From IMG/VR virus record IMGVR_UViG_3300046011_004984, positions 1 to 21,205 of that record: a stretch of 21,205 nucleotides of DNA; one strand, 5' to 3'. Shown here in pieces: positions 3,101-21,205 of this stretch. Each line of letters opens with the position of its first letter. The stretch's first letter is position 1. This stretch comes from a virus. The notes below the pieces were generated by a model. The model was given only the letters and a program-made list of their open reading frames with translations. It was not told the origin of the DNA and made no database searches. A program made the position numbers and the translations under genes.

Positions 3101-6080
3101 GATTATATCCGTCAAACTCATTAGCTCCTGAAATTGTATATGTAATAGCAGCCCCATCAGTTATAGTACGTGTTCCAGGAGTAACACTTATTACTTCGTC
3201 TGGTGTTGTTACTATAGTCCACCCGCCTTGGGTTGTGCCGCCTACACTAAACTCCATGCTAACTGCAGTTTTATAACTTCCACTAGCAGTACGTCTAAGA
3301 TATAATGTAAATTCACCTGAACCATTTGAAGTAGCATTACCTGATGTTGCATAGCCTGCCATTCCTGTAGCAAAAATAGTTCCGCTAAGACAACTAACGG
3401 GTATTGTTGTCCAACTAGGTTCGACTCCTCGAACTAATACTGAAGTTTCTTGCACACTGTTAAGATCACAATTAAACCGTACAGGTAAATCTCCTACTCT
3501 TGGCGTTGGGATTAAATCTGGATCTAATGAAGTATCGGTAATTGACATAGTGGTATTTGACGTTGCAAAGTCACCAGTTGGTGATCCAGTTAATTGGAAA
3601 GACATTGTTTCTGGTGTACTTTCAGTTAAATGATCAGTTGCAATAGTAAACGATACAGTTGCAACACCGCTATTTACAATAAATGACCCAGTTAATGCAG
3701 GTGTCATACTTACAACTGTACCGCCAGTTGAAGTATACGACATTGCAGAAAAGTCAGCAGCTGATACGCCTGTTATACTCCAATTATACGATGTATTAGT
3801 TGCTACATTAGTTGTTGAAATCCCAAATGATCCAGTATTTGAACCAGCGGTTTCAGTAACTGTAGCTCCGCTTCGTGTATATGTAAATAGCGGCATTGGG
3901 GTTACATACGCAGATGTTGTTGCTGCACTACTTATTCCGTTGTATACGTTTTTAGCATAAATAGAAAAGGTTCTAGTTCCTGACAATCGAGAATTGTTTG
4001 CAGACAAATCGCCTAATACAACTGATCCAGAAGTTATACCAGTTTTTGTTTGTCCGGTATCTGCAGTTACAGTATATGTATAAAGTGAATTATATGTCCA
4101 TGATATAGTTGCAATACCTGTCCCGCCTACTGCAGATGGGTTAGATGGCGGATTTGGATCTCTAGTAGTTACCGAAAATGTTCTAGAACCTGCCCCTATT
4201 ATAAATGTACTAGTAACTGTATTTGTTTCATTTGGTGATGCATTCATTCTAGGCTGAAATACAATGTTACCACTACTATCCGGAATTACAGTTGCAGTTG
4301 TCACCCACCCTGTTGTTAACGATAATGTTCCAGTTTGGAATGACCCATTTGATGCAGAAACAGTTACACCTCCACCGGTGCTATATCCAGGTGTAAATGT
4401 TCCAATTGTTACTGATGAACCGGCAACATTTGTTGTTCCCAGTTCTTGATTAGTAACACTTACAAATGCTGAAGTTATTGGATCTGGTTTTAAATCTGGA
4501 AGTGTTGTAATAGTGTTATCTACATAGATATTTCCTGCCCTGTTGTAGGTATAAATTCTTATTGTATAACCAGTCCATCCTATTAAGTTTGTGTTAGTTA
4601 CAGTTGAAATAATCGAATTTGCTAATAACCCACTGTCAAAAACTTGCGACATATCACTTGTTAAGTATGCATACACTCGATAATTATCTACAGTTCTAGT
4701 TGGTGTTGTAACTGCTTTTGTCCATGATATAGAAATAGAATTCATATCAGGAGTTAAAATTACACCCGTAACATTTACTGGTACTTCTGGCCACGATGTT
4801 TCAGTAGCAGTACCTGATTTTACAGATTCACCACCTGCATTTACTGCTGCAACTTGATACGAATGTGCCGTATATGCGGTTATACCGGTATTATCAATAA
4901 ACGGTGATGTTTTAGTGCCTACTGATGCGCCGCCTTTGTATATTACATAAGATGTTGCTCCAACGGTAGTGCCCCATGTAACTGTAATACTTGTTTGACT
5001 TGTTGCAACCGCAGATGGCGCTGCTGGTTGAACAGTTTTAGTAGTAAACGATAATACAGCACTAACAGCAGTGCCTGCTTCATTATTAGTATCGACATAT
5101 ACATTGTAAACTGTGTTAGCTACTAATACAGATGTCGAAGTATTACCAACTGTCGTGTTTCCTAATAATCCGCTATTATATTTTTCAACACCGTCGGCCT
5201 GTAACAATACTCTTACTCGTTGACTAATAATAACCGGACTTGCAGATTTAGTCCATGTTACTGCTACAGTAGATGATGTTATATTTGTTAATGCGCCGTA
5301 ACTTACAGCTGTTGCTGCAATTGGAAAATCTGGTAACGATCTTGTTGGAGCAGCTGCAGCAGACATTGGGCCTACCCCACCGGTACTTCTTCCTTTAACT
5401 TTATATGTGTGCAATGAATAAGTTAACACATTATGGTCATACGGTATTTGAACGCCGGTTACAATTAACGTATCTGTTCCAGAAATAACTTCATAAACAT
5501 CATAAGAAGATGCGTATGTTGCAGATGCTGTAACTCTTAATATATTTTTACTAATAACATTAACTACTGGGGTAGTTGGAGTTAGTGGCACGTTTTCTAA
5601 TGTTAATAAATCTGCAATTGTTTCTGCAGTGGGTAATGGGGTAATTGCAGTGTTTGACGCTAACAAGTGAACTTTAAATGATGTACCTGCAGTTAACCCT
5701 GTTAAATTAGCAAATAGCTGTAACGGACTGGTTGTAAACTCTTGTATTGGACCATATACAATAGAATCAGTTGCTGCGTCTTTAACTGTAACAGTGTACT
5801 TATTACGAATACCATCTGATTCTTCCCACGACACTCTAGCAGTAGTTTGGTAAACTAGTGTAAATTGCGGATTTTTTGGTTTACCAATATTTGATTTACC
5901 AAATCCGTCCCAAAGTGAAATTAGTGCTTGATCGTTAGGCTTTTGAAACAAATTACGCACAGTAACTTGATTTAATGAAATAGGTGTATTTGGCGCAAAA
6001 AACAATTCAACATTAACTTGAGACATTGAAATTGAATTCTGAGCATTAGTAGATGGATTTCGTTCTAATGGTAGTGTCAT
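189..6080 (-). CDS. FN3/Ig-like multidomain phage virion (fibre/adhesin-type) protein, 1963 aa
   Basis: Probable virion surface protein. The N-terminus (about residues 15-63: ISMSQVNVEL, ISLNQVTVRNLF, ISLWDGFGKSN) resembles an attachment module I recall from T4-like cyanophage structural proteins. FN3-like beta-sandwiches follow at about 70-145, 165-248, 250-348, 350-430 and 432-528, with later ones at about 1475-1562, 1566-1657 and 1776-1866. A second Ig-like type, here called A, recurs at about 530-640, 853-960, 1054-1170, 1173-1283 and 1661-1776; it often starts D-x-x-P and ends near TFTVGSR...TT. A third type, B, follows two of the A copies (961-1053 and 1284-1378). Residues 730-850 look Calx-beta-like (VTET, TIATDHLTES, ETMSFQL). 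Only eight cysteines are visible in 1963 residues. The start ATG at 6080 overlaps the upstream stop (TAATG) and has AAGG nine bases upstream. No enzyme motif or S74 tail is seen. The role in adhesion is inferred. Confidence 0.85.
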   Translation of the reverse strand: MTLPLERNPSTNAQNSISMSQVNVELFFAPNTPISLNQVTVRNLFQKPNDQALISLWDGFGKSNIGKPKNPQFTLVYQTTARVSWEESDGIRNKYTVTVKDAATDSIVYGPIQEFTTSPLQLFANLTGLTAGTSFKVHLLASNTAITPLPTAETIADLLTLENVPLTPTTPVVNVISKNILRVTASATYASSYDVYEVISGTDTLIVTGVQIPYDHNVLTYSLHTYKVKGRSTGGVGPMSAAAAPTRSLPDFPIAATAVSYGALTNITSSTVAVTWTKSASPVIISQRVRVLLQADGVEKYNSGLLGNTTVGNTSTSVLVANTVYNVYVDTNNEAGTAVSAVLSFTTKTVQPAAPSAVATSQTSITVTWGTTVGATSYVIYKGGASVGTKTSPFIDNTGITAYTAHSYQVAAVNAGGESVKSGTATETSWPEVPVNVTGVILTPDMNSISISWTKAVTTPTRTVDNYRVYAYLTSDMSQVFDSGLLANSIISTVTNTNLIGWTGYTIRIYTYNRAGNIYVDNTITTLPDLKPDPITSAFVSVTNQELGTTNVAGSSVTIGTFTPGYSTGGGVTVSASNGSFQTGTLSLTTGWVTTATVIPDSSGNIVFQPRMNASPNETNTVTSTFIIGAGSRTFSVTTRDPNPPSNPSAVGGTGIATISWTYNSLYTYTVTADTGQTKTGITSGSVVLGDLSANNSRLSGTRTFSIYAKNVYNGISSAATTSAYVTPMPLFTYTRSGATVTETAGSNTGSFGISTTNVATNTSYNWSITGVSAADFSAMSYTSTGGTVVSMTPALTGSFIVNSGVATVSFTIATDHLTESTPETMSFQLTGSPTGDFATSNTTMSITDTSLDPDLIPTPRVGDLPVRFNCDLNSVQETSVLVRGVEPSWTTIPVSCLSGTIFATGMAGYATSGNATSNGSGEFTLYLRRTASGSYKTAVSMEFSVGGTTQGGWTIVTTPDEVISVTPGTRTITDGAAITYTISGANEFDGYNLDVIEATGTIVNTNSIVNEFLSATGTVTKSIYREGFGTYRLRATFNSSGHTRYSETVTQNADIYPDTFAVIEVANSGNLEPYAQLYPASQMISGMSKNCPITISWSFTNFVAFSGMSVTGATSVSEYTNSSLTVNTDSTGSVALAFGIRMPNAFSTTCTASITVGSRTLNPAFTATTRAADIYPTLPLASWDNSTDYSIPINSTVSAAAAYVTDLEHNYSINVSSSGGSFFAGTYTTVGTPLSTSATVTTSPSGSFVMQLVLQTSNSYNTVTSMTYTVGSRTETYSVRTTANEVFTVSPSSMSVGSTATLNITGAIANSTVTLQTVNSNGNITDVVFLSGLLVNSNGSASTVYMVGARGTCQFMATFSATGHTRTTGTLTVYPIPAVSISFNITTREMAVSITNAWPTDTFNIVGTGTGNMSGLNSPSPMTILNNGTSTAYYMGTSNAVWGTWWGTWYCTVTSSLSAYTATSNTVIVPKLAPNVTPAIGTVTAQNGSISFPYTLGASTAGPVEFVASVMNGGTPGSNANISSGTFTYIGLTNGTQYLFSVYAGNSTANGSASVFSATPVLTAPVVTVTLSYIASGLGFIDFGFTVGTNTGGPWSNYAIWTTPNPGDLTTTWISASPPYSGRLSGTINWSTPYSIYIAVSNAAGYSASSNTITVTPTPDTTPTPIPTIPANATGQPIGGVMADSGTFTVYGLQPNYNSLTISASGGVIGAGNSNFTLKYAQDSSRSDISTDPSGNLLVVLRLPTSYSPLTTTNMTFTIGTFLGSWSATTVNVAPGEVTVTLVSKTSTSISISWSYAAGGGVVTLIYASASNSTYGNILANPFPMAGTVTTYTFNGCTPGASYIVTVGAYNNVGNSTKSITVVTDLPTFAPPTPFTGTSTYATQILTFTYTATHTRTYTVTATGFDCRLSLNNSAYQDNDEATGNGETSTILLTAGASLTIKVTGASGGAFAKFGTITVTIT
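1731..1754. repeat. Perfect 12-bp tandem duplication encoding WGTW-WGTW
   Basis: The 12-mer CCAAGTTCCCCA (plus strand) occurs twice with no gap. On the coding strand it reads TGG GGA ACT TGG twice and gives residues 1443-1450 of the 1963-residue protein, WGTWWGTW. It is in frame and perfectly conserved at the DNA level, as expected for a recent slippage duplication. Confidence 0.9.
1947..3524 (-). repeat. Duplicated A-B Ig-like module pair inside the 1963-aa protein
   Basis: Residues 853-1053 and 1173-1378 share the same order of two modules. Both A parts end near M-x-(F/Y)-(S/T)-V-G and run into E-V-(I/F)-(S/T)-V-(T/S)-P. Both B parts then show a similar series: an I-(S/T)-G-A turn, a central F-L-S, a G-T turn, A-T-F-(N/S), and G-H-T-R near the end. 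A single extra A module (1054-1172) lies between the pairs. The DNA has diverged, so the duplication is old or was acquired by recombination. Confidence 0.65.
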
Positions 6081-7153
6081 TATTCTCTACCTTTTAACTC
6101 GTTAATTTCTACTTGTTGTGCTTTAATACATTCAATCAGTAACGGGATTAATTTTGCATAATCAACTGCTAGCATTCCATTTTCTCGTTCGTTAACTGCT
6201 TCTGGTAATACTGATTGCACTTCTTGTGCAATTACTCCAACATCGTATTTTTTAAATAAAGATTGATCTTGTGTTGCATAGAATTCTCTATTCCATTTAA
6301 ATGTATTACCAGATAATGCCATTAATTTTTCAATTGGATTAGTGATAGGAGTAATATTTTCTTTTAATCGGTTATCTGATAAACTATACGCAGTAACGTT
6401 ACCTGTAGCAGATATATCTCCACCAACACTTATATTTCCTGTTGTAGAAATAGCCAACGGCGCAGAAGAAAATGAACTAGATGCAGTGAGAGCCGCAGCA
6501 GCAGTTGATGAGGTAAATGTCGGATTTAATACATACGCAACTGTACCGGATCCGTTAAATGTAACTGTTTCTGAAGTATTGTTTATAGTGTTCAATGATA
6601 TAGACGAATTTAGCGTTAACGTTTTATTGTCAGAAGCACTATCTAGTGTCATTGATTTATTTACAGTTAACGTTTTACTATCAACACCTGCTAATGTTAT
6701 TGTATTGTTTACAGTTAATACTTTTGTATCAAGAATTGTTAAGGTTGATCCATTTGCAGGAGCAGTAACAGTTAATCGATTAAGGGTATTTGAATAACTT
6801 GGATACCATTCACCGATATTGTTACTAACTACATATGTTAAGTATAACGGTTTACCTATTTCGGCACTAATTGCAATTGAAACGTTTCCTGTTGCATTAA
6901 TAGTAAACTTTCCGGTTGGTATTATTGTAATCTGTCCACCGTTAACAAATGTTACTGGAGGATTAATATTTGAAATACTGCTAGTTCCACTAACAAAAGA
7001 AATTTGAGTTGATAAACTAATACTATTAGCAGCAGGAATAGTAGGAACAGACGCACCGACATCATCTACTCCTAAGTAATCCAAAAACGCTAGCCGACCT
7101 AAGTCTCCATTGGTCGGCACTTGATTTGGTTTTGTTCCAATAAAACTACTCAT
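6080..7153 (-). CDS. Short tail-fibre protein with C-terminal S74 self-cleaving chaperone domain, 357 aa
   Basis: The N-terminus (FIGTKPNQVPTNGDLGRLAF, residues 4-23) matches a module I recall from T4-like cyanophage fibre proteins. Residues 40-250 are Thr/Ser/Asn-rich beta structure, including three tandem 16-17-residue repeats at 142-190. From about 257 the chain becomes a peptidase S74 intramolecular chaperone: SDNRLKENI at 259-267, a GVIAQEVQSVLPEAV stretch at 306-320, and a terminal helix (LIPLLIECIKAQQVEINEL). In this family the chaperone drives trimer folding and then cleaves itself off just before the Ser of the S-x4-K dyad, here inferred as Ser259/Lys264. The mature fibre would be about 258 residues. 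Start ATG at 7153 has a strong AAGGAG eight bases upstream and overlaps the mini-ORF stop. Its own stop overlaps the next start. Confidence 0.9.
   Translation of the reverse strand: MSSFIGTKPNQVPTNGDLGRLAFLDYLGVDDVGASVPTIPAANSISLSTQISFVSGTSSISNINPPVTFVNGGQITIIPTGKFTINATGNVSIAISAEIGKPLYLTYVVSNNIGEWYPSYSNTLNRLTVTAPANGSTLTILDTKVLTVNNTITLAGVDSKTLTVNKSMTLDSASDNKTLTLNSSISLNTINNTSETVTFNGSGTVAYVLNPTFTSSTAAAALTASSSFSSAPLAISTTGNISVGGDISATGNVTAYSLSDNRLKENITPITNPIEKLMALSGNTFKWNREFYATQDQSLFKKYDVGVIAQEVQSVLPEAVNERENGMLAVDYAKLIPLLIECIKAQQVEINELKGRE
6090..6095 (-). promoter_or_regulatory. Ribosome binding site for the 1963-aa gene
   Basis: The coding strand reads AAAAGG nine bases before the ATG at 6080, inside the last codons of the S74 fibre gene. 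The site is moderate in strength. With the TAATG overlap it favours translational coupling. Confidence 0.55.
6584..6733 (-). repeat. Three tandem 16-17-residue beta repeats in the S74 fibre
   Basis: Residues 142-157, 158-173 and 174-190 align as D-(x)-K-(V/T)-L-T-(V/L)-N-x-(T/S)-(I/M)-(T/S)-L. The first two begin at Asp142 and Asp158 and are exactly 16 residues apart. The regular alternation of hydrophobic and Thr/Asn residues suggests a trimeric beta-helix or solenoid shaft ahead of the S74 domain. The structural reading is inferred. Confidence 0.75.
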
Positions 7154-7209
7154 TAATTTAACTCCTTAGAAAGTGTTAATGTATCTTTAAAATTATATTC
7201 TTGTCTCAT
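7153..7209 (-). CDS. 18-residue mini-ORF between giant gene and S74 fibre gene
   Basis: The 67-bp gap between the two structural genes holds an ATG-started reading frame encoding MRQEYNFKDTLTLSKELN. It has its own Shine-Dalgarno (AAGGAA, six bases upstream) overlapping the stop codon of the 4426-residue gene. Its stop TAA shares a base with the ATG of the 357-residue gene (TAATG), and it contains that gene's AAGGAG. The peptide is hydrophilic with no motif I recognise. It may be a coupling leader that carries terminating ribosomes on to the fibre start, a tiny functional peptide, or a chance frame. The double placement against neighbouring stop and start argues against pure chance, but conservation is unknown. 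Confidence 0.5.
   Translation of the reverse strand: MRQEYNFKDTLTLSKELN
7162..7167 (-). promoter_or_regulatory. Ribosome binding site of the S74 fibre gene
   Basis: A perfect AAGGAG on the coding strand ends eight bases before the ATG at 7153. It lies inside the mini-ORF, within codons for Lys and Glu of its SKELN end. Confidence 0.85.
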
Positions 7210-7215
7210 TCTTAA

Positions 7216-7221
7216 TTCCTT
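7216..7221 (-). promoter_or_regulatory. Ribosome binding site of the mini-ORF, overlapping the giant gene's stop
   Basis: The coding strand reads AATAAGGAATTAAGAATG. AAGGAA lies six bases before the mini-ORF ATG, and its first two bases belong to the TAA stop (7220-7222) of the 4426-residue gene. A ribosome terminating there would sit on the site. Confidence 0.6.
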
Positions 7222-10200
7222 ATTGGGTTGTAATTGCCGTTATTTCTGCATCATTTAATCTTACTGGATAATATGCAATTTTAGAAATTGTTTGAGCACC
7301 TGTTTCGTTACCTATATTTAACCGTTGCATAGGATTTACAGAATCGACTATATCTGAAGCACTATCAGTTACTAATGTTGCATTATCACCATTTGAAATA
7401 TAAGACACTATAGCATTTGTAACAGTGATAACTACACTTGCCGATAAAGTAGTTGATGGTGCTTGTGAAGTTACTAAGGTGTTTCCTAATACCGAAACAA
7501 CATAAGTTCCTGCAGGATATGAACCTACTCCGGTTGTTACTGCAATAGTTGCACCTGGAAATATTCCATTAATTACTGCAATTGATGTAAATGTAGTAGT
7601 TGTTGTAGTTGATGCCGATGCAGTAATTACTACTGGTAATAACGTTGATCTGTACGCTACTGCATGAGTAACTTCATTATTTAAAACTGCAGTAGTTATA
7701 CTAGAAAGATTAAACTGTGTTGTCGATGTATTAGTTTTACCAACTGCTTTATAAATCATTGACGACGTGCCAGTAGTTAACCCACCTACTGCGATAGTTG
7801 TAGATTGATTAACGTTTTCAATAAACACACCACCATAATCTTTAACTGTAATTGACTTATCAATTGCAGTTGCAGCTTGAGAAATTAATATAGTACCTTC
7901 ATTTTGATTATACCATCTTGAGAAATTAGTACCGCCAACATAAACCGTATCTGCTTCTCGTGTTACAATAGTTGTAACAGTTGGTATATAACTTGTAACC
8001 ATTCCTCCATCTTCTAATTGCGCACCCCACATTACAATCGAATCACCTGCTGTTTCTAACTTAATACCTACACCATGATCTGATGTATTGTCAGTAAAAT
8101 CATATCTTGTTAGTGTTGTAGTTACTGGAATTGTATACCAAGATGGCTCTGAAGACTCAATTACTGGGGTATTTGGATCCATTGTGTATTGTATACTTCC
8201 TGTTCCTGAAACTCTCTTAATCCATATTGAGAATGTTCTAGGAATAGGACCGCCTGCAGGAGCAGATTGGAACATAATTTTTGCAGGAGCAAGTGCAGTT
8301 GTACCGCTATCAGCTGTAAATTTAATTGCAGTAGTTCCATCCGGAGCAACTACACCAGATAATGGATCTCTTGAAATACGTGTATCATACCATGTTGTAG
8401 CATCTGTTATTACTCCTAACGTGAATAACGCAGAATATCTTATATAATTAGTTCGACTTTCTTCGATTAATAACCCTGATGACATTCTAGTTACTGTATT
8501 ATATGTAAACCTTGGTTGATTAGCAATTGCAACTTTCATTACTCCTGACATATCATAATATGTACCAATTGACTCACGCGTAAATGTAATCCTTGGATCT
8601 AATGTTCTACTATTAGCAAAATCAAACATTACGGTTGGTTTTACTTTTGGTCTTGTATCACTTGCTTCTAATCCTGCACCGGACGATCTAAATGTACCCT
8701 GTCTTGCATCAAATGTACTTCCTGTCGGTAAAGTCCATGATCCGGAAATTGTACCAGTAAGGTTAGTACCACTGTAATTAAGTGTAGATGCGTTTATTGT
8801 ATTACCTGAAACATCTAATGTTCCTAAAACTTTAACTACAACTGGTGCTAAATTAGTACCATTACCTACTGCAGTTAAAAAGTCAGAAGAACCAGGAGTT
8901 GTAAATACTACCTTTATTGTTTCTGCCGCACCTGCTCCTATAGTATCAATAATTTTAGAACCGTCAATTTTATATTGTTCGGCATTAATATCACCAACAT
9001 CACCAGTTTTTACTATTCTATTTCTTAGATCATTAGTAGTAGTTGTAGCTATTAAACTATAGGTATTTTGAGAAGTGGTTGTTCCGTTGTAAGACGCTAA
9101 CATAACATAATTAGTTAACGCAGTAGTACCACTACCAAATACCGCATTCGTAATACCGTCACCGCCTGTAACAACTGTACCAAATGATATTTCAGTAGGT
9201 GCTACCGATGATCCACTATTATTTCCTAATACATTCCCTGTACTTATTGCAGCTAGTTTACCTAACGCAACACCGTTATTTTTAAGATCGATCCAACCGT
9301 ATGTTGCGTTAAATTGATTACTATTAAAGCTAGCAACACCTAAATTAGCCTGAACAAAACTACTTGGTACAGTAGACGCTGTAGGTGCAGCAGTTAGTGC
9401 GAGTTTACTTTGATCAACTGCAGCAGTTGAACTAACCATACTGTTAACAATCTTACCAGCACCGATTATAGAAGTTAAATTGTAATATGTTATTCCGGAA
9501 ATTGTTTCAGAAACAACCGATAACGTTATATCTCCGATAATCGTTTTATTACGCCATTTATACTCTGTTGACAATCCACTGTCAGTTGGTCCAATTACAT
9601 ATGATAACACTTGTGCAGATTGTGGAGTACTTGTTACTTTAACATCACCTAACTTTGAAACTGCATCTTTTGACGATATTTGAGTATCTACATAACCTTT
9701 AGTTGCAGCATCTGAATCTACTGCAGGTCCATTTAAGCCAGTAATTCGATGCTCGCCATTCATGTTAATAGGGCCGTTCATAGCAGTAATACCATTTAAT
9801 GGTAAGAATCCAGGTCCAATAATTGACGTAAACGGCATCAATGAACCACCGTGATCTAATCCTAATCGTTTATCAATATACCCACGTACTGCACTTTGAA
9901 CAGGAACAATTTCAGATGCATTGTTAGTTAATGATGAATCAGATGAAAACTCGTTAACAACAACCCCTCTACTAAAACCAAACCCTTCGATGTTTGATAA
10001 CGAAATCTTAGCACTAAACGTTACAGTACCAGTACCTTGGTCTACTGAGAAGAAACGTCCTACTCTAAATATACCATCTTGATTAGTTGAAACGTAAAAA
10101 CAACGTCCTACACCTTCGTCTAATGTTTCGTGTGCAGGGTTTCTTGCTAATGCAGGATCACCGTAGATTGAATATGGAATATTTGTAGTACTATATCCGC

Positions 10201-13200
10201 CGGTACCTATATCACAGAAATCGTGTCCTGTTGCACGACAGGTACTAATACGTGTCGTTACTTGGCCGCCTACATCAACTGCATACCCAAGTTTTAAAGT
10301 ATAAGATGATGTTTTACTAAACGGTTTACTAATACCTAAACTATCACCTAATCCAGATGTACTAGTTCTAACAATTGTAGTAGTACCAGTTCCATATAAT
10401 CCGGGATTATACGGATAAAATATAACAGCATGGGTAGCATCAGCACTTGAAATTACTTGTACAAATCCGTTATAAAGTAAACTGCTATTTCCTGCAATTT
10501 GGTACCAAGTTCCTGCAGTAAGAGCTGATCCTAATGTTGAATAATTATATGCTACCGAATACCCTTCAACACCATTATAAGTAGTTAATGTTGGAAGACC
10601 TGTGTTGGCATTAACAATTGTAGCAGCAGTATCTGCACCAAAAACACCAGGATCTCCAGAAAACAACGTAGTTAATTGTGTAACGGTTTCACCGGTAGAT
10701 GCAATAGACGTTCTATAAACAGGTGTTGTTAGCTCTATTATTATTACTGCATCACGGTCTTGTGATGACCGTGCTGGAGCATTTGGAGCAATACCAATTT
10801 GAACAGTTGGCGTAGTTATATAACCCGACCCTGGTCTTATTAAATTAATTTGTGTAATAACACCATTAACTACATTACATGATGCAGTTGCTTGTTGAGT
10901 GTACGGTTCACCTACTATAGTGATAGGTGGTGGTACAGTATATCCAGTACCGCCATCTGATATATAAATTCTTTTTACACTAGCTGCTAATATTGCTCTA
11001 ATTGGAGACCCGTTTGGTGCCCAACATGACGGACTTACTACAATTTTGTTAGTATCTTTATCAACTGATTGAACAATTGTTTCCGAGTTCATATTTGCAG
11101 TAGTTGGTGTTTTGATTGATACCAATAAACTAGTACCAGATATAAAATCAGTTTTTACTGCGTTACTTGGTGATCCTGTAGTTAACGTAAATGTATATGT
11201 CGACGGAGTTGATTTTACATAATAGATAATTCCTTTTTCTAATCCATTAGTTGTAGTATTTGACTTAACTATATCACCTGTAGATAGACCAGTTTCTGCA
11301 ATTGTTGTAAATGTAGTACCACTAGCAATAGTTGTTACAATATATTCAGATGTAATGATCATTCCCGGCACATACCCTTCAACCGATGGAAGAGTTAAGG
11401 TAGTTTGATCTTTTATTGAAGTAACCTGCAACGGAACATTATAATTAGAATTTGAATTTCCGCTAATTGTAATAAAGCTATCAACTTTTGGTATTAAGTT
11501 ATCCTTATTGTACGGAATGTTAAATGTTACTAATTTATTAACTGTGCTGTCAACTTGTAATGTACTACTTGCAAACACCATTGCAGGAATACCAGTTCCG
11601 TCTGCAGAATTATTAATAATTGCATTAGCTGAAATTTCAAGATAGCCGTTGTTATTAACACCAAATGTAACTTCACTTCCTGCAGTAACAGTACCTACAC
11701 CATTTAAAACAGTTATACTAGTATGCGTTAAATTTCCTACAGTAATTTCTGAACTTACAACAGTACCAATAAATTCAACAGTAGATACTCCGCCAACTAA
11801 CACTTTACTGACAATAATTGTTCCAGGAACAATTGTTCCCGAATTTCCTGAAACTTCTAATATCTGAGTAGTGTTGTTATACTCTACACCTAATCTAGAT
11901 GCTGCAAAAGTCGGAACTACATATTTTAATACACGATGTAATCTACCATTCCATGAAGTGATATATGTTCCTTTATTGATTTGATCAATAACTGAATCTT
12001 GTGTAATACGACTTACTGCTATTTTAGTATCACTAACTTTAGATCCTTGTGTTTTAAATGAGAACGACACCGGGCCTGCTGGAGTAATTGTTGGATTTGC
12101 AGTTGATGTAGTTACCGACCCTAATGTAATAGTATAAACACTACTTATTGGTCCGGTTACAGTTGATACAATTTGTCCTGTAAACCCAATGCCTACAATA
12201 GTTTGTCCAGCTTCGATTATTCCGACAACATTATTAACTGTTATTGTAGTACTTGAAACACTACCGGATACGATAGATGCTGTTATATTTGAAGAAGGAT
12301 CACCATTTACGATGTTAGCAGGGTCAACAATAAAACTGTAATATGCAAAATCATTATCACTTTGTAAAATTGCAACGTTTGGATCTAATAAATCACCAGT
12401 TGATTCTGTTAAGTTATATGCAACAATACGATATACATCATTTAAGTTGTCATTATATTGTAATGCAGTTGATGGTCTAGTCGGTTTAACGTTATCAATA
12501 TTATTAAATTTTACGTTAGTTGTTACACGAATAGTTACTACCTGCCCATGGTACAATTCTTTTGCTAACCCAGCCGATGCTGCACTAGTTGAACTTGTTG
12601 AAGCAGATAAGTTCAGTTTAAGAACTGTTTTAGTTCCAATTAAAATTGAAGTATACTCAACTGATGTGATTGAATACTTAGTAATAATACCGCCATTTAC
12701 TGTATGATCAATTTCTAATGTAGAACCATTTGTTGGTTTATAATCATAACCACTAATCCACACAGATACCGCAGAAGTTGTAGCAGTAGGAGTCATTTCG
12801 TTAATAGTTAACCCTTGTTTATACACTATTGCAGTTTGAATCATGTGGTTAGCAAGGTTAGTACTATCTGGTAATTCAGTAACGTCAAACCCCGACGCCC
12901 TCATACCGTAATTACCAAAGGTGTTTGAACAGCCTACGCCTCTTAAGTTACTACCGTTGTTTGCCCAAAGCCCGGTATGTGCATAATACGTAAATGTACA
13001 TACTTGTTCAGTAAACGCACCATTTGTTGCAAGAATACCATATGCTAAATCATTAAACATAGCAAAGTCGTTTGCTAACATAGACCGATTACCGCCAGTT
13101 TCTAAATTAATCCGTAAATTAGCACCATTATTTAAGAAAGTAGTAACCGATGATGCAATAGTTGATATATCGGTTAACACTGTACCGTAATCATCTGTAT

Positions 13201-16200: not shown

Positions 16201-19200
16201 TTCCAGATGTTAACGTAACTACTGCAGTGCCAGTTGACAACGTAGCAGATAATCCAGTAACTGTTCCAACAGTGATTGTAATACTGCCTGCAGTTTTATG
16301 ATTAACCGATAGTGTAAATTGTGTAAGACTGTCAATTGAGATAATAGTTAACGATGTATCTTGTGCCGGCACATATTTTACAATTGTGCCATATGCGTCC
16401 GATGCATCAACTGTTGATGAACCGACACCAAGTACTACTTTAGCAGGAAAAATATCGTTGTTTGACGGTGACCCTTGATCAACAAATCCTCTACCACCAT
16501 TGTTAACACAAACATGCCATATTCCAGTGCCGTATGATGCAACTGGTGCTACGCCGACACCGTATTGAAGAATATTAAGAACTGTATCAAAACTATTAGT
16601 AAATTTTGTTATTGAATCATTTGAATTTAATATACCTGTTCCATTTAATGTCAATGTAACAGAATTACCAGTTAATGTAGTTAATTTAAAATTATGAGTA
16701 GTTGCATTTGCTACATAATAAATTGTATTGGTAACAATACCAGTAGTTGTTGTGATAGATGAGAATGATACTGATGTACCGTTAGTTAGACCATGGCTAG
16801 TTAAAACAACTAAATCGCCAATATCAACAAACGATACTGATCTTAATGATGCAACATTTGCTGCTATATTACCTTGTACAAATATAGAAGTTGACGGTAA
16901 CTCGCTTGCATTTGAGAATGAAACAAGCTGAGGCAACGATTGATATCTAACTGCAGTTTCTTTATTTAAGACCTGCAATGCAACTGTTTTAGCAAATTGT
17001 AATCCGTCAAGCGATTGTTTATAATGTGTGCCGCCAACTGCAATAGTTCTTGCACTAGCATTTTTATAAAAACTTTTTCCTGAATTAATAGCTTGCCATG
17101 TTCCGCCTGTTATTAAATCAATACACATTGAATCAATGATAAATCCTAAATCTCTATAACACAACGATTCATCGTATACAAACCCGCCTGCAAATGTAGT
17201 ATTAACATACACAACAGTGCTGTTAACAATTGACGTTGAATTGTTTATAATAAGATTTCTTAATGATATTGCATTTCTATACATATCATTTGTATCATTA
17301 TTAGTAAATGTATCTTCGTTAACTAGCGTTATTGTAGGGCTGGCAACAGTTAAAAAGTTAACAACTTTGTCAACTTTATCGTTAATTAACGCAGTTATTG
17401 CAGATAGTTGAGGCGCAGTGCCGGAATAATTAGCAGTAATTTGTGCAGTAGCAAAAGTTTTTACACGATTAAAAATGTTTGTTGTACCGTTGGTGTTACC
17501 TGGTGCATCGCCAACTTTTGTATATTGTTGACTTGCTCGATATAATGCCGAATCTCCACCAAACGTTATATCATATAACAACGCAGTTACAATATTTTGT
17601 AATTCCTGAACCATCTTTACTCGATCATAAGTAACGCCGTAAAACAGTTCTCCGATATCTTGATTATCATATACATACAATTCGGTGTTAGTAGCAATAT
17701 TGTTAATGATACTATATGTAAAAATTGATCTAGTTTGATCAATCATTGCTGCAGTAATAGTTTGATTAGTGTTAACTTTTATATTCGAACTTAATGCAGG
17801 AAACGTTGGTAACGTTGTTGGAACTTTACCAGATTGTATAATATCGGTTATAACTTTGAATAATCTTATAATTTTAGTTTGTTTAATCTCAGTATCAATT
17901 ACTGGATAAAACTTATTCATAAACCAAGATGTAGATGTAGTAGGTCCGGTTGTATACACAGCAGTTGTATTGCCAATACCGGTATAGACTGTTTGCAAAT
18001 CACTATTGCCGGTTGTAATATCTGGGTATGTAGTAGACACTGGCACATTTGCAATATCAGTTAAAATATCTGCAATTAACGTAATGTTTGACGAAACTGA
18101 CAACGACGCAACTATACCATTAGATAGTGTATCATTTCTATATTGTCTTACAGATTGCTGATATGATACGTTTAATGTACCGTTTTTAATAATTGATTGT
18201 GCTAATACGTTGACATGTCTAATTGCTGCAATACATGCTTCTGATTCTGAATCTTTAATAAAATTAGATGATGCGTTAGCCCAAAATTGTTTTCCAGCAT
18301 ACACACTTTGACTATTACCGCCGTATGTTAAATCGTATACTAAACTCCAAATAATATATTTTATATCACGATTGCTTAACGCTCTATCATAAATTACATT
18401 TGGATATTTTGAACTTAAAAACGACAATGTTTCAGCTTGAATAAATGCAATATTTTCTAACAATAACTGTTTAGCTGATGCATGCCCAACTAGATCATAC
18501 CCTACTGCTGGATTTGCAGGTAATGGATACTTTACTGCAGGCAATGTTCCGTACAGTACGTAGTTACGAATAACGTTAATATTTGAAATAATTAAACTTG
18601 TTTTTGATGCCGCTGGTAGATTACGAATTGCCGGTGTTAACATTAACAAGTTGATTAAATTTTTACGATCTATGGTACCAGTTGCACTAAATCTTCCAGC
18701 ATTTAATTGTAATGTAGTATTTGAGAACGAAACTGAAGTAAGGGTTGATCTAGTAACTACAAACGAAACAACTGCACTGTTATTAAATGAAGAAATTGTA
18801 ACCGCATCAGACGCAATATCTATACCAATTAGAGATGCATTAATAAGAATCTCACTTGCTACTGGATACAAAATTGATGTTTGTGTGTTAAAGAATAATG
18901 TTATTTGAGATCCGTCACACTCTGCTGATTTAATAGATATTGGATTAATAATTAACATAGATGCTAATTGTTCAGCACTTATATTAGTACCAGCATTTTT
19001 AAATGCAATTGCTGTTTGAACACTTTGATAATTTGATTTAAACAATGCATCGTACTTAATTGCATTAATTAATTGTAAAGTATATGCTTGTAATGCAACT
19101 GTGTTATATGAGAAATCGATAATTTGATCTCTTATAAAGTTAACAGTTTCGACCCACTGAATTAAACCATCACTAGTTGGATTATCGTGAACATAACTTA

Positions 19201-20500
19201 CACCTTCCCAGTATGAATTGTAATTAGTACCCGACGTAGCAGAATCTGGATTAGATGCGCCTAGCACTAAATCGGTTCCGATATTTGTTAATAAAACATT
19301 AATCTTATCTTTAAGTGTATTAGTGTCATAGGCAAACGGATTAACGTATTTTTTATTAATATACGCAATTGCTTCTGCTTGAATAAAACCTTTGTTTGCT
19401 TGTAATAAATTAAATGCAGCAACATACCCAGAATCGCTAGAATTTCCACCAGTTAACGACACTTTTTGAATTTTTGAAAAATACTGATCAGCACTTATCG
19501 TATAGGAAATACGTTGTTTGTATGGGCCTGGTTCTTGACTTGCTACATTAATTAATGACTCTGCATGTAACATTGCAGCACCGACCGACCTAAAAGCGTA
19601 ATTCCAAAATCTACCTTCTTTACCTGCAGGAGTTTGTGATTGTAAATCATCGCCGCTAGTTGCTATGTATAGATTAACATTACTTGAAAATGTTTTTTTA
19701 TCAACATAAAACGCAGTTGCGGCTTGTAAATCATCTTTATTATCAATACCAACTATACCTGCTAATTCTTTTGGATGATCATGTAAATACAGCGGCCCTG
19801 TCATAGTATCACCACCGCGGTATATTGTATTCTTACGAGGTAGTACTTCGGATGGCAAATAATTACTAGTTAATGTTGAATCGTATGTGCTTCCTGCAGA
19901 TGTATCAGGTGCAATCGGTTCATTACGCGCACTTACTGGACCTGGTACAATTGAACCGTTTGAATCTACTATACCTATAGTACCGTCTTCTGTTAATCTT
20001 ACATAATTTTTATTTGCATAACCAACGTTAACTACTAACTCGTCAAGTGTAGTTGTAACATTAAGAGGAGCCCATAAGGTGTTAAATGATTGAACTAATG
20101 CATCGCTTGGATCCGGAACTCTTCCGATAGGAAACCCATTTGCATTAAACGGATATTTAATTTCAGGAGTTTCATCTTCTGAAAGTTGAGATGCTTTTGA
20201 TGATATAACGATCGACGTGTCAGTGATATTAATGTCAATAAACTTATTACCTTTAACTAATTTTCTAGCAGTTAAACTGGTACCAGTTGCATTACCCATA
20301 ATAATTTGATTTCCAACTAATACATCATCTACTGTTGAATAATCGCAACCATCTGCTAAATCAGAAAAGGTAATACGGCCGCCTTGGTTAAAAATTGCAT
20401 ATATTTCAGTAAAGTTTGCATTAACTTTACGAAATGCGTCTCTTATACTATCACCAGTGCCGTCGTTGCCTTGTACACCGATTTGAATTTGTTCTTGCAT
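7220..20500 (-). CDS. Giant modular phage virion/tail-fibre protein, 4426 aa
   Basis: Probable tail-fibre or other virion structural protein of a T4-like marine phage. The N-terminus (GNDGTGDSIRDAFRKVNANF, residues 11-30) is a module I recall from cyanophage structural proteins. A fibre motif GGDTMTGPLYL is at 229-239. Helical modules (FIQAE, then Y-D...RD...YD...GG) recur at about 361-412, 676-738, 955-992, 1106-1146, 2063-2101 and 2171-2242. A beta-helix-like part covers about 1560-1985 (VFVESGIYYEDYPIRLP, MTFQGHGGFAMVLDPEG). Familiar blocks follow at 2470-2540 (GNRSMLANDFAMFNDLAYGI), 3175-3236 (two G-x-GY modules), 3465-3520 (FYVSTNQDGIFRVGRFF) and 3596-3604 (DAATKGYVD). The C-terminus (about 3956-4426) resembles the phage spike/jelly-roll module: FTRESIGTYYD, GLLIEESRTNYI and a final IAYYPVRLNDAEI. 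Glycan binding there is inferred. AAGGAG lies ten bases before the ATG. The frame is intact over 13.3 kb. Confidence 0.9.
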   Translation of the reverse strand: MQEQIQIGVQGNDGTGDSIRDAFRKVNANFTEIYAIFNQGGRITFSDLADGCDYSTVDDVLVGNQIIMGNATGTSLTARKLVKGNKFIDINITDTSIVISSKASQLSEDETPEIKYPFNANGFPIGRVPDPSDALVQSFNTLWAPLNVTTTLDELVVNVGYANKNYVRLTEDGTIGIVDSNGSIVPGPVSARNEPIAPDTSAGSTYDSTLTSNYLPSEVLPRKNTIYRGGDTMTGPLYLHDHPKELAGIVGIDNKDDLQAATAFYVDKKTFSSNVNLYIATSGDDLQSQTPAGKEGRFWNYAFRSVGAAMLHAESLINVASQEPGPYKQRISYTISADQYFSKIQKVSLTGGNSSDSGYVAAFNLLQANKGFIQAEAIAYINKKYVNPFAYDTNTLKDKINVLLTNIGTDLVLGASNPDSATSGTNYNSYWEGVSYVHDNPTSDGLIQWVETVNFIRDQIIDFSYNTVALQAYTLQLINAIKYDALFKSNYQSVQTAIAFKNAGTNISAEQLASMLIINPISIKSAECDGSQITLFFNTQTSILYPVASEILINASLIGIDIASDAVTISSFNNSAVVSFVVTRSTLTSVSFSNTTLQLNAGRFSATGTIDRKNLINLLMLTPAIRNLPAASKTSLIISNINVIRNYVLYGTLPAVKYPLPANPAVGYDLVGHASAKQLLLENIAFIQAETLSFLSSKYPNVIYDRALSNRDIKYIIWSLVYDLTYGGNSQSVYAGKQFWANASSNFIKDSESEACIAAIRHVNVLAQSIIKNGTLNVSYQQSVRQYRNDTLSNGIVASLSVSSNITLIADILTDIANVPVSTTYPDITTGNSDLQTVYTGIGNTTAVYTTGPTTSTSWFMNKFYPVIDTEIKQTKIIRLFKVITDIIQSGKVPTTLPTFPALSSNIKVNTNQTITAAMIDQTRSIFTYSIINNIATNTELYVYDNQDIGELFYGVTYDRVKMVQELQNIVTALLYDITFGGDSALYRASQQYTKVGDAPGNTNGTTNIFNRVKTFATAQITANYSGTAPQLSAITALINDKVDKVVNFLTVASPTITLVNEDTFTNNDTNDMYRNAISLRNLIINNSTSIVNSTVVYVNTTFAGGFVYDESLCYRDLGFIIDSMCIDLITGGTWQAINSGKSFYKNASARTIAVGGTHYKQSLDGLQFAKTVALQVLNKETAVRYQSLPQLVSFSNASELPSTSIFVQGNIAANVASLRSVSFVDIGDLVVLTSHGLTNGTSVSFSSITTTTGIVTNTIYYVANATTHNFKLTTLTGNSVTLTLNGTGILNSNDSITKFTNSFDTVLNILQYGVGVAPVASYGTGIWHVCVNNGGRGFVDQGSPSNNDIFPAKVVLGVGSSTVDASDAYGTIVKYVPAQDTSLTIISIDSLTQFTLSVNHKTAGSITITVGTVTGLSATLSTGTAVVTLTSGNTAELSIGQTPTAITGPGEFGVGTLGNVDTVQVRLSKPGFFTSSYILSNVTWAYSNANIIVTSNNHTVTAGTNIIVNSANFSGSNTNAPTGSWVVSSVTTNTFSFTADAIPTGTSTTLTVVIQVGEELEFGETVRDLQITVFVESGIYYEDYPIRLPANVSIKGDEFRRTIIRPIDRISQSAWVNMFFYRDSIIDALEIGKVNYNGTDDSPVVSSFVSFTDTGDLVTLASHGLILNSKVKFVTISTTTGLTTDIDYYAIPVSENTFKVKLSITGSASTLTNNGTGIMTHYTDYSPVVSTNVSFTDSGDLITLVSHGFLLNNRVTFLSVNTTTGLTLNVGYFVIPVSINTFKVASVKDGSAVSFTNNGTGVISHNITASFDGVSNKIVVTLGSNYQALLSWVGRVIADTSTTDNKKRGRAVIDSVSGNTMNCTVIYPFDQPGIYPYSVIVAGVTKIVTWKLFDTNNYGRHYLTDPLDINSTPKNNKEIDVFLCNEGNRVLGMTFQGHGGFAMVLDPEGNIKTKSPYIQECSSFSQSNNYKRFAGGQLIDGFAGRLYGTITNIADQGLTVTVIGEDNSGLDVRPPQPPCSFYVRGNRYQIDDIASFDASTKTVVLTLDKSTTYMYDPVTHALTYDLLKAQRDVGFVLDAAITDAILGTNYRSIHAGRSFLRTYSSLLIGGLKDLTISGIDESARLANLYFANTSLLSNNIRIITGMISNGVNATPTITWPTSATSDLNKVRDIIQNNKEFIKTEISAWLAAGSSGYNISKFANYNVLTSERDTGYIIDAITYDIFFGGTSQTYDSAISFYYYDTANNIQSVIPDELELCKQAYIHLKSILQDIIANNVITKSSGNGVSQIFYTTLPTSTSTYVTNAGNLCDIIIDYVVDHAWTAIPSVAIPCKVVSATISGTQTGTYAVGNLLTVSGVSGVIAYVTAVSLTGAVTAVSFTRTGATAGNFTSTPASLTALATANSNISTGYGAGALLTLVIGPQYFPSLPTGDNTDDYGTVLTDISTIASSVTTFLNNGANLRINLETGGNRSMLANDFAMFNDLAYGILATNGAFTEQVCTFTYYAHTGLWANNGSNLRGVGCSNTFGNYGMRASGFDVTELPDSTNLANHMIQTAIVYKQGLTINEMTPTATTSAVSVWISGYDYKPTNGSTLEIDHTVNGGIITKYSITSVEYTSILIGTKTVLKLNLSASTSSTSAASAGLAKELYHGQVVTIRVTTNVKFNNIDNVKPTRPSTALQYNDNLNDVYRIVAYNLTESTGDLLDPNVAILQSDNDFAYYSFIVDPANIVNGDPSSNITASIVSGSVSSTTITVNNVVGIIEAGQTIVGIGFTGQIVSTVTGPISSVYTITLGSVTTSTANPTITPAGPVSFSFKTQGSKVSDTKIAVSRITQDSVIDQINKGTYITSWNGRLHRVLKYVVPTFAASRLGVEYNNTTQILEVSGNSGTIVPGTIIVSKVLVGGVSTVEFIGTVVSSEITVGNLTHTSITVLNGVGTVTAGSEVTFGVNNNGYLEISANAIINNSADGTGIPAMVFASSTLQVDSTVNKLVTFNIPYNKDNLIPKVDSFITISGNSNSNYNVPLQVTSIKDQTTLTLPSVEGYVPGMIITSEYIVTTIASGTTFTTIAETGLSTGDIVKSNTTTNGLEKGIIYYVKSTPSTYTFTLTTGSPSNAVKTDFISGTSLLVSIKTPTTANMNSETIVQSVDKDTNKIVVSPSCWAPNGSPIRAILAASVKRIYISDGGTGYTVPPPITIVGEPYTQQATASCNVVNGVITQINLIRPGSGYITTPTVQIGIAPNAPARSSQDRDAVIIIELTTPVYRTSIASTGETVTQLTTLFSGDPGVFGADTAATIVNANTGLPTLTTYNGVEGYSVAYNYSTLGSALTAGTWYQIAGNSSLLYNGFVQVISSADATHAVIFYPYNPGLYGTGTTTIVRTSTSGLGDSLGISKPFSKTSSYTLKLGYAVDVGGQVTTRISTCRATGHDFCDIGTGGYSTTNIPYSIYGDPALARNPAHETLDEGVGRCFYVSTNQDGIFRVGRFFSVDQGTGTVTFSAKISLSNIEGFGFSRGVVVNEFSSDSSLTNNASEIVPVQSAVRGYIDKRLGLDHGGSLMPFTSIIGPGFLPLNGITAMNGPINMNGEHRITGLNGPAVDSDAATKGYVDTQISSKDAVSKLGDVKVTSTPQSAQVLSYVIGPTDSGLSTEYKWRNKTIIGDITLSVVSETISGITYYNLTSIIGAGKIVNSMVSSTAAVDQSKLALTAAPTASTVPSSFVQANLGVASFNSNQFNATYGWIDLKNNGVALGKLAAISTGNVLGNNSGSSVAPTEISFGTVVTGGDGITNAVFGSGTTALTNYVMLASYNGTTTSQNTYSLIATTTTNDLRNRIVKTGDVGDINAEQYKIDGSKIIDTIGAGAAETIKVVFTTPGSSDFLTAVGNGTNLAPVVVKVLGTLDVSGNTINASTLNYSGTNLTGTISGSWTLPTGSTFDARQGTFRSSGAGLEASDTRPKVKPTVMFDFANSRTLDPRITFTRESIGTYYDMSGVMKVAIANQPRFTYNTVTRMSSGLLIEESRTNYIRYSALFTLGVITDATTWYDTRISRDPLSGVVAPDGTTAIKFTADSGTTALAPAKIMFQSAPAGGPIPRTFSIWIKRVSGTGSIQYTMDPNTPVIESSEPSWYTIPVTTTLTRYDFTDNTSDHGVGIKLETAGDSIVMWGAQLEDGGMVTSYIPTVTTIVTREADTVYVGGTNFSRWYNQNEGTILISQAATAIDKSITVKDYGGVFIENVNQSTTIAVGGLTTGTSSMIYKAVGKTNTSTTQFNLSSITTAVLNNEVTHAVAYRSTLLPVVITASASTTTTTTFTSIAVINGIFPGATIAVTTGVGSYPAGTYVVSVLGNTLVTSQAPSTTLSASVVITVTNAIVSYISNGDNATLVTDSASDIVDSVNPMQRLNIGNETGAQTISKIAYYPVRLNDAEITAITTQ
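15086..15568 (-). repeat. Tandem pair of 'SHGL' beta-modules in the giant protein
   Basis: Residues 1645-1720 and 1730-1805 are adjacent copies of one module with the order SPVVS, VSFTD-x-GDL, SHG, TTTGLT, NTFKV, NNGTG. By eye, about 48 of 82 aligned residues are identical. A third copy lies at residues 1218-1294 (16619-16849). Confidence 0.85.
16619..16849 (-). repeat. Third, dispersed copy of the SHGL beta-module
   Basis: Residues 1218-1294 show VSFVDIGDL, LTSHGL, TTTG, YYV, FKL and LNGTGI in the same order as the tandem pair at 15086-15568, but sit about 350 residues nearer the N-terminus. The copy follows a helical module and precedes NSFDTVLNILQYG. Confidence 0.8.
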
Positions 20501-20890: not shown

Positions 20891-21205
20891 ATGTTTGAAT
20901 TTATCAAATCATTATTTAAAAGAAAACCTGCTAACACTCAATCATCAGATCCTGTGTTAATCCATGCAGATATTGGCGAGAGTGTTGTTATTACAGAAGT
21001 TTCATTAGCAGAGGTAAAACCAAAAAAACCAAAGGTAACTAAATTAAAAGAAGTTGAACCAGTTAAACCTGTAACTCCTGCAGTAGCTAAAGGTGTTAAA
21101 CCTGCAGCTAAGAAAACCAACCCTAAACAAGTTAAATCTGAACCTGCAAAAATTGTACAACTTGTACAACCGTTACCAACTAAGAAAAAAGGTCGTCCTA
21201 AATTT
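20891..21205 (+). CDS. Lys/Pro-rich basic protein with AT-hook-like GRP motif (partial, 3' end outside window)
   Basis: The frame is open for 105 codons to the window edge without a stop. The N-terminus MFEFIKSLFKRKP is an amphipathic, basic helix candidate. Residues 15-40 are more neutral and acidic. From about residue 44 the chain is low-complexity Lys/Pro/Val/Ala (VKPKKPKVTK, EPVKPVTPAV), ending at the edge in KKKGRPKF. GRP flanked by lysines resembles an AT-hook core, so DNA binding is possible, but a single GRP in a Lys-rich tail is weak evidence. Family and function are not recognised. A strong RBS and a late promoter octamer immediately upstream suggest late expression. It could be a virion-packaged or head-associated DNA-binding protein; this is inference only. 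Confidence 0.75.
   Translation, partial: MFEFIKSLFKRKPANTQSSDPVLIHADIGESVVITEVSLAEVKPKKPKVTKLKEVEPVKPVTPAVAKGVKPAAKKTNPKQVKSEPAKIVQLVQPLPTKKKGRPKF

Follow-up and report, generated by a model that had tools for sequence, protein, structure and literature searches.

A short frame between two phage fibre genes as a probable relay cistron for translational coupling

The 21,205-nt stretch of viral DNA analysed here (IMG/VR record IMGVR_UViG_3300046011_004984, positions 1 to 21,205; hereafter the window) carries an 18-codon frame, the mini-ORF, between a giant tail/fibre gene and a gene for a fibre/chaperone protein with a Peptidase_S74 domain (the S74 gene). We consider it probable that this frame is translated purely as a relay cistron, yields no functional product and keeps the translation of the S74 gene coupled to that of the giant gene; it would most likely represent a natural instance of a known device, the leader ORF that brings about translational coupling. 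The anatomy of the junction, its conservation across a clade of related phages, the drift of the encoded peptide, and the fact that a full-length gene or a direct junction can stand in place of the frame can all be read directly from the sequences.

The giant gene, the S74 gene and a gene for an fn3-repeat protein form a run (Table 1) with a single gap of 66 nt, and this gap is occupied by the mini-ORF. The initial annotation had described an 18-codon ATG frame filling the operon's only gap, led by a Shine-Dalgarno (SD) sequence that overlaps the stop codon of the 4426-residue gene and closed by a TAA that overlaps the next ATG (TAATG); all of this is exact, coordinates and frame included. The mini-ORF has its own SD (SD1) and start codon, while the SD of the S74 gene (SD2) lies inside it, and AAGG/AGGAG-type SD2 sequences are found inside the leaders of its relatives as well. 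The C-terminus of the giant protein is a LamG-like fibre end (...IAYYPVRLNDAEITAITTQ), and its N-terminal part resembles the N-terminal domain of T4 gp9/gp10 weakly (E 3e-4, below the Pfam cut-off), a match suggesting that the giant fibre may be anchored to the baseplate. The S74 protein matches Pfam PF13884 (E 5.6e-15) and many PHROG tail-fibre families. No promoter-like site was detected in the gap, a scan of 700 nt revealed no terminator-like site, and the window contains neither Rfam elements nor tRNAs. The giant gene is adjoined by a divergent gene for a lysine-rich protein (MFEFIKSLFKRKP...), an arrangement that recurs in most of the related contigs covering this region.

Table 1. Features of the giant-gene/S74 junction and its surroundings in the window
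Feature	Position	Strand	Remarks
Lysine-rich protein gene	20891-21205	plus	divergent from the giant gene
Giant tail/fibre gene, 4426 aa	20500-7220	minus	stop TAA at 7222-7220
gp9/gp10-like N-terminus of the giant gene	17523-20500	minus	weak match
SD1, TAAGGA	7222-7217	minus	overlaps the giant-gene TAA; 7 nt upstream of the mini-ORF ATG
Gap between giant and S74 genes	7219-7154		66 nt
Mini-ORF (putative relay cistron)	7209-7153	minus	MRQEYNFKDTLTLSKELN; 18 codons plus TAA at 7155-7153
SD2 of the S74 gene, TAAGGAG	7168-7162	minus	AAGGAG at 7167-7162, within mini-ORF codons 14-16 (AAG GAG); 8 nt upstream of the S74 ATG
TAATG	7155-7151	minus	1-nt overlap of mini-ORF stop with S74 start
S74 fibre/chaperone gene, 357 aa	7153-6080	minus	C-terminal Peptidase_S74 domain; N-terminal motif MSSFIGTKPNQVPTNGDLG
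fn3-repeat protein gene, 1963 aa	6080-189	minus	1-nt overlap with the S74 gene

From this layout we infer translation of the mini-ORF, with coupling as the function under selection. Ribosomes finishing the giant gene would meet SD1, which is built onto its stop codon, restart at the mini-ATG 10 nt downstream of that stop, translate the 18 codons and stop at TAATG, where the S74 gene would then be started with the aid of SD2 inside the mini-ORF. A gap of 66 nt, too long for efficient coupling, would thereby give way to two short hand-offs, one of +10 nt and one of -1 nt, so that translation of the S74 gene would be tied to that of the giant gene. According to a 2025 review, coupling is most efficient at spacings of -4 to +3 nt, and several studies observed little or none of it once the spacing exceeded about 30-40 nt, while others see some at longer spacing; overlaps of -4, -1 and -8 are enriched in coupled gene pairs, and short ORFs may serve solely for the delivery of ribosomes (PMC12548453). 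In an E. coli reporter, reinitiation was at background level with a 40-nt spacing (PMC2268962). Since the predicted RNA folds do not mask SD2 as a rule, reinitiation or scanning would be more likely than an unmasking of this site. It should be noted that the S74 gene, with a strong SD2 of its own, might also start uncoupled, and that the predicted RNA structure provides no general reason why it should need help. Moreover, 47% of ordinary gene pairs in one of the related phages (G001) have gaps of more than 40 nt, so that coupling is not needed everywhere in such a phage.

Relatives of the window were found via the S74 protein, the C-terminus of the giant gene and N-terminal alignments, and they comprise IMG/VR contigs including two of about 372 kb each (G001 and G002); in view of these two large contigs, the window probably derives from a jumbo phage. 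For its clamp loader, read from the 25-kb contig on which the window's junction lies, the nearest counterparts (56% identity) are found in PA5oct-like jumbo phages of Pseudomonas. Among the cultured phages there is no DNA relative at the level of the junction; the N-terminal S74 motif is matched in Delftia phage PhiW-14 only, where the slot is held by a different gene of 109 aa with a 1-nt overlap. Prophage relatives were not confirmed in any bacterial genome, and a search with the SD1-junction pattern, which returned 87 stretches, added no LamG junctions to those already known.

Nine distinct mini-ORF junctions were recovered from the related phage contigs, with frames of 8 to 19 codons; L002/L009/L208 is identical to the window at the junction, probably stems from the same genome and was not counted as independent. 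The peptides of the relatives are MRQNYNFLKNTNTFSKELQ (L213), MTKYSFKDIHTFIKGLK (L211), MKHFTNSIPPFSKGLQ (L034), MNKYFTLNIDITLNSKELK (L212), MKQYFTLKTILLDSKELT (L214), MKQTYKTKTLKGLQQ (L038) and MIYKINKIKGFNND (L217), to which the 8-codon MKINKGEY (L220) is added, found at a paralogous junction of G001 and of two further contigs. Every one of the nine frames ends in a stop/start overlap within coupling distance (-1 in seven, -4 in L038, -8 in L217), and an AAGG/AGGA-type SD1 precedes the mini-ATG in all of them except L220, which has a weak AGGT only. The frame of the mini-ORF relative to the S74 gene is the same at eight of nine junctions, while its distance from the giant gene varies between 3 and 10 nt, a contrast that ties the mini-ORF to the S74 gene. 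Measured against the S74 frame, its length changes by whole codons, with L217 as the exception. An in-frame extension of the giant gene was considered as well and is excluded, since the distance from the giant stop to the mini-ATG (3, 4, 9 or 10 nt) does not keep a constant frame.

In a tree of the LamG tails, eight of the mini-ORF junctions and a direct junction (L209, from G002) fall into one clade (support 100/99), whereas L220 lies outside it and therefore points to a second origin of the mini-ORF. Because L209 is nested within the clade, a loss of the mini-ORF in this lineage is probable, with the reservation that support for the inner forks is weak. Here (TAAGGAATAAACAATG), SD1 stands directly before the S74 ATG, and the distance from giant stop to start is 10 nt, as it is at the mini-ATG; a loss of the stretch between the mini-ATG and the S74 ATG would have just this outcome. 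L209 is the only relative within the clade without the mini-ORF frame, and we found none there that had lost the ATG or the frame while keeping the fibre gene's own SD, a combination that would have spoken against the initial annotation's interpretation. One of its two readings, the reinitiation cassette, which it suggested may also set the ratio of giant protein to S74 fibre, is well borne out as a cassette: the ATG, the open frame and the stop/start overlap are kept through whole-codon changes in length, while the residues drift neutrally.

The slot is occupied in most other phages by a gene that encodes about 75-127 aa, matches phrog_18574 and most often ends in TAATG, a real gene of roughly 100 aa that had escaped the initial annotation. 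Such genes commonly end in WAG[ED], and these codons hold the SD of the next gene. This double use of the WAG[ED] codons is seen in many members of the family (e.g., L029:457-681 and L056:5977-6300, the latter on the minus strand). The four junctions of G001 comprise one mini-ORF of 19 codons, one of 8 codons, one direct join and one phrog_18574 gene. Its second fibre cluster (L056, G001:60001-80000, positions 4829-12765) repeats the junction between a LamG end and an IGxxPNQxPTN gene, and contains the 8-codon mini-ORF, the direct join and the full phrog_18574 gene within 8 kb. One may go a step further and regard the slot before IGxKPNQxPTN fibre genes as a conserved coupling adapter of phage tail operons, in which an unbroken path for the ribosome is what selection maintains and which is interchangeably filled by a gene of about 100 aa, by a contentless mini-cistron (with at least two origins) or by a direct junction; arguments for and against this broader proposal are, in our view, evenly balanced. 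Were it true, expression of the S74/IGxKPNQ protein would stay tied to that of the giant fibre. At two junctions of other phages, the gap ahead of an IGxKPNQ-type gene measures 74 nt (L218) and 52 nt (L271); the former contains a weakly led 18-codon frame only, the latter no frame. With no well-led bridging frame in either gap, tight coupling is not universal.

One rival explanation grants the mini-ORF no function and regards it as a leftover ATG with an open frame in an AT-rich spacer that ends at the next start by accident. When random intergenic sequence drawn from the same phages was substituted for the interior of each junction and scored for a frame from the mini-ATG ending at -1, -4 or -8, the chance of such an ending was 0.10 for the window and 0.09-0.39 across the nine junctions; at a single junction an accident thus has a chance of about 10%, and the phage is AT-rich. 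Against it stands the fact that eight of nine clade members have retained the mini-ORF despite deep divergence, and that such a frame is present again at a separate junction. The product of the probabilities is 4.5e-8 if all nine junctions are taken as independent, a value that overstates the significance because the mini-ORFs are not fully saturated; as the junctions share ancestry, the 3e-4 obtained for only the four deeply split lineages is the fairer figure. Bridging frames are also rare at other gaps: among gaps of 25-160 nt, as delimited with a simple gene caller, G001 has an SD-led bridging frame in 7 of 80 and G002 in 3 of 89. Two of the seven in G001 are junctions of the giant/S74 type, and several of the other bridging frames are probably ordinary real genes of 32-49 codons. 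The layout of the mini-ORF is apparently more than chance, and we regard the accident as improbable. Still less credit is due to a functional microprotein, an 18-aa peptide with a role of its own, for instance in fibre assembly or as a virion component, which had been put forward together with the reinitiation cassette. In its favour, position, SD and start are conserved, and the nearest relatives are partly alike (MRQEYNF.KD, MRQNYNFLKN and MTKYSFKD). The codon alignment of seven mini-ORFs, however, reveals no purifying selection on their residues: 85, 131 and 126 differences fall on the first, second and third codon positions, so that the second is as variable as the third, and of the codons in which the window and L213 differ, 1 is synonymous and 5 are nonsynonymous (neutral expectation 1.2 and 7.0); the sample of junctions is small, and this closest pair contributes much of the result. 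The near-constant part of the peptide is limited to SK[EG]L., which the embedded SD2 and the stop codon would force, the length falls from 19 codons to 8-15, with 8 as the minimum, and L209 has lost the frame altogether. Aligning the junctions of relatives, as had been recommended, thus brought out the conserved ATG and stop overlap and failed to bring out synonymous-biased substitutions; frame, start and stop are kept, and the residues are not.

A regulatory leader would retain the translation of the mini-ORF and assign it another task, with translation or stalling opening or closing a fold of the RNA by which SD2 would be masked, an attenuation mechanism tuning the S74 gene to a signal. This too is very unlikely: none of 150 shuffles of the L213 interior pairs SD2 as much as the natural sequence does, and L217 and the window display a weak excess, but the other junctions have none, there is neither a conserved stall peptide nor an Rfam match, and predicted folding yields a masking hairpin in clear excess over shuffles at just one of eight junctions (L213). 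A further suggestion concerns the origin of the mini-ORF alone and is compatible with its reading as a relay cistron, namely that it is a shrunken relic of a phrog_18574 gene whose body was deleted. The mini-ORF occupies the slot of these genes, behind a LamG-ended fibre gene and before an IGxKPNQxPTN gene; it shares with them the type of SD that follows the LamG stop and, usually, the TAATG at the next gene, and a phrog_18574 gene is also present at a paralogous junction in G001. When compared with a profile of 22 phrog_18574 N-termini, by contrast, the mini-peptides score no better than shuffles (combined p = 0.38), and intermediates between 19 and about 74 codons were not seen among the junctions found. 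Position fits and sequence does not; we view this descent as rather doubtful, possible but unsupported.

A close parallel to the proposed relay cistron comes from synthetic biology. Like the leaders of the bicistronic design (BCD), the mini-ORF combines an SD1, fewer than 20 codons, a stop/start overlap of 1 nt and an SD2 wholly within its 3' end, and the length of a BCD2-derived leader (17 aa) is close to its 18 (PMC5995908). Unlike these, it is natural, is placed inside an operon behind a 13-kb gene rather than at the 5' end of the mRNA, and is proposed to be entered by terminating ribosomes, given that SD1 lies on the giant-gene stop. ORF-11, ORF-17 and ORF-18 of the integron attI1 site are likewise short SD-led frames whose translation, not their residues, drives the next gene (PMC8876359); integron cassettes, however, often lack an SD of their own and their leader follows a promoter, whereas the phage fibre gene has a strong SD2 and its leader bridges two structural genes. 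Mycobacterial short upstream ORFs and MIRU-borne ORFs also "deliver" a ribosome by stop/start overlap (PMC12548453), in a setting different from a tail-fibre operon of a large phage where the slot is elsewhere filled by a real gene or by nothing. Within phages, phrog_18574 genes share the slot, the SD and commonly the TAATG with the mini-ORF, yet encode proteins of 74-127 residues with a conserved YYLKFTDE-like start and a RKWAGE-type end.

If the mini-ORF is a relay cistron, the phage has its own, natural version of a device engineered in synthetic biology, sited behind a 13-kb gene, which illustrates how two fibre proteins might be co-translated with no useful product between them. The coexistence of mini-ORF, direct junction and full gene provides a clean comparative case for asking whether coupling itself is selected. 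It also calls for caution, as conserved short phage ORFs from gene scans need not encode functional peptides. The motif [FL]IGxKPNQ[VI]PTNxDLG forms the N-terminal head of fibre proteins in many phages (IGNKPNQVPTN genes in L208-L287), and the genes that carry it usually follow directly behind a LamG-ended fibre gene or a phrog_18574 gene; the motif may be an attachment or assembly tag.
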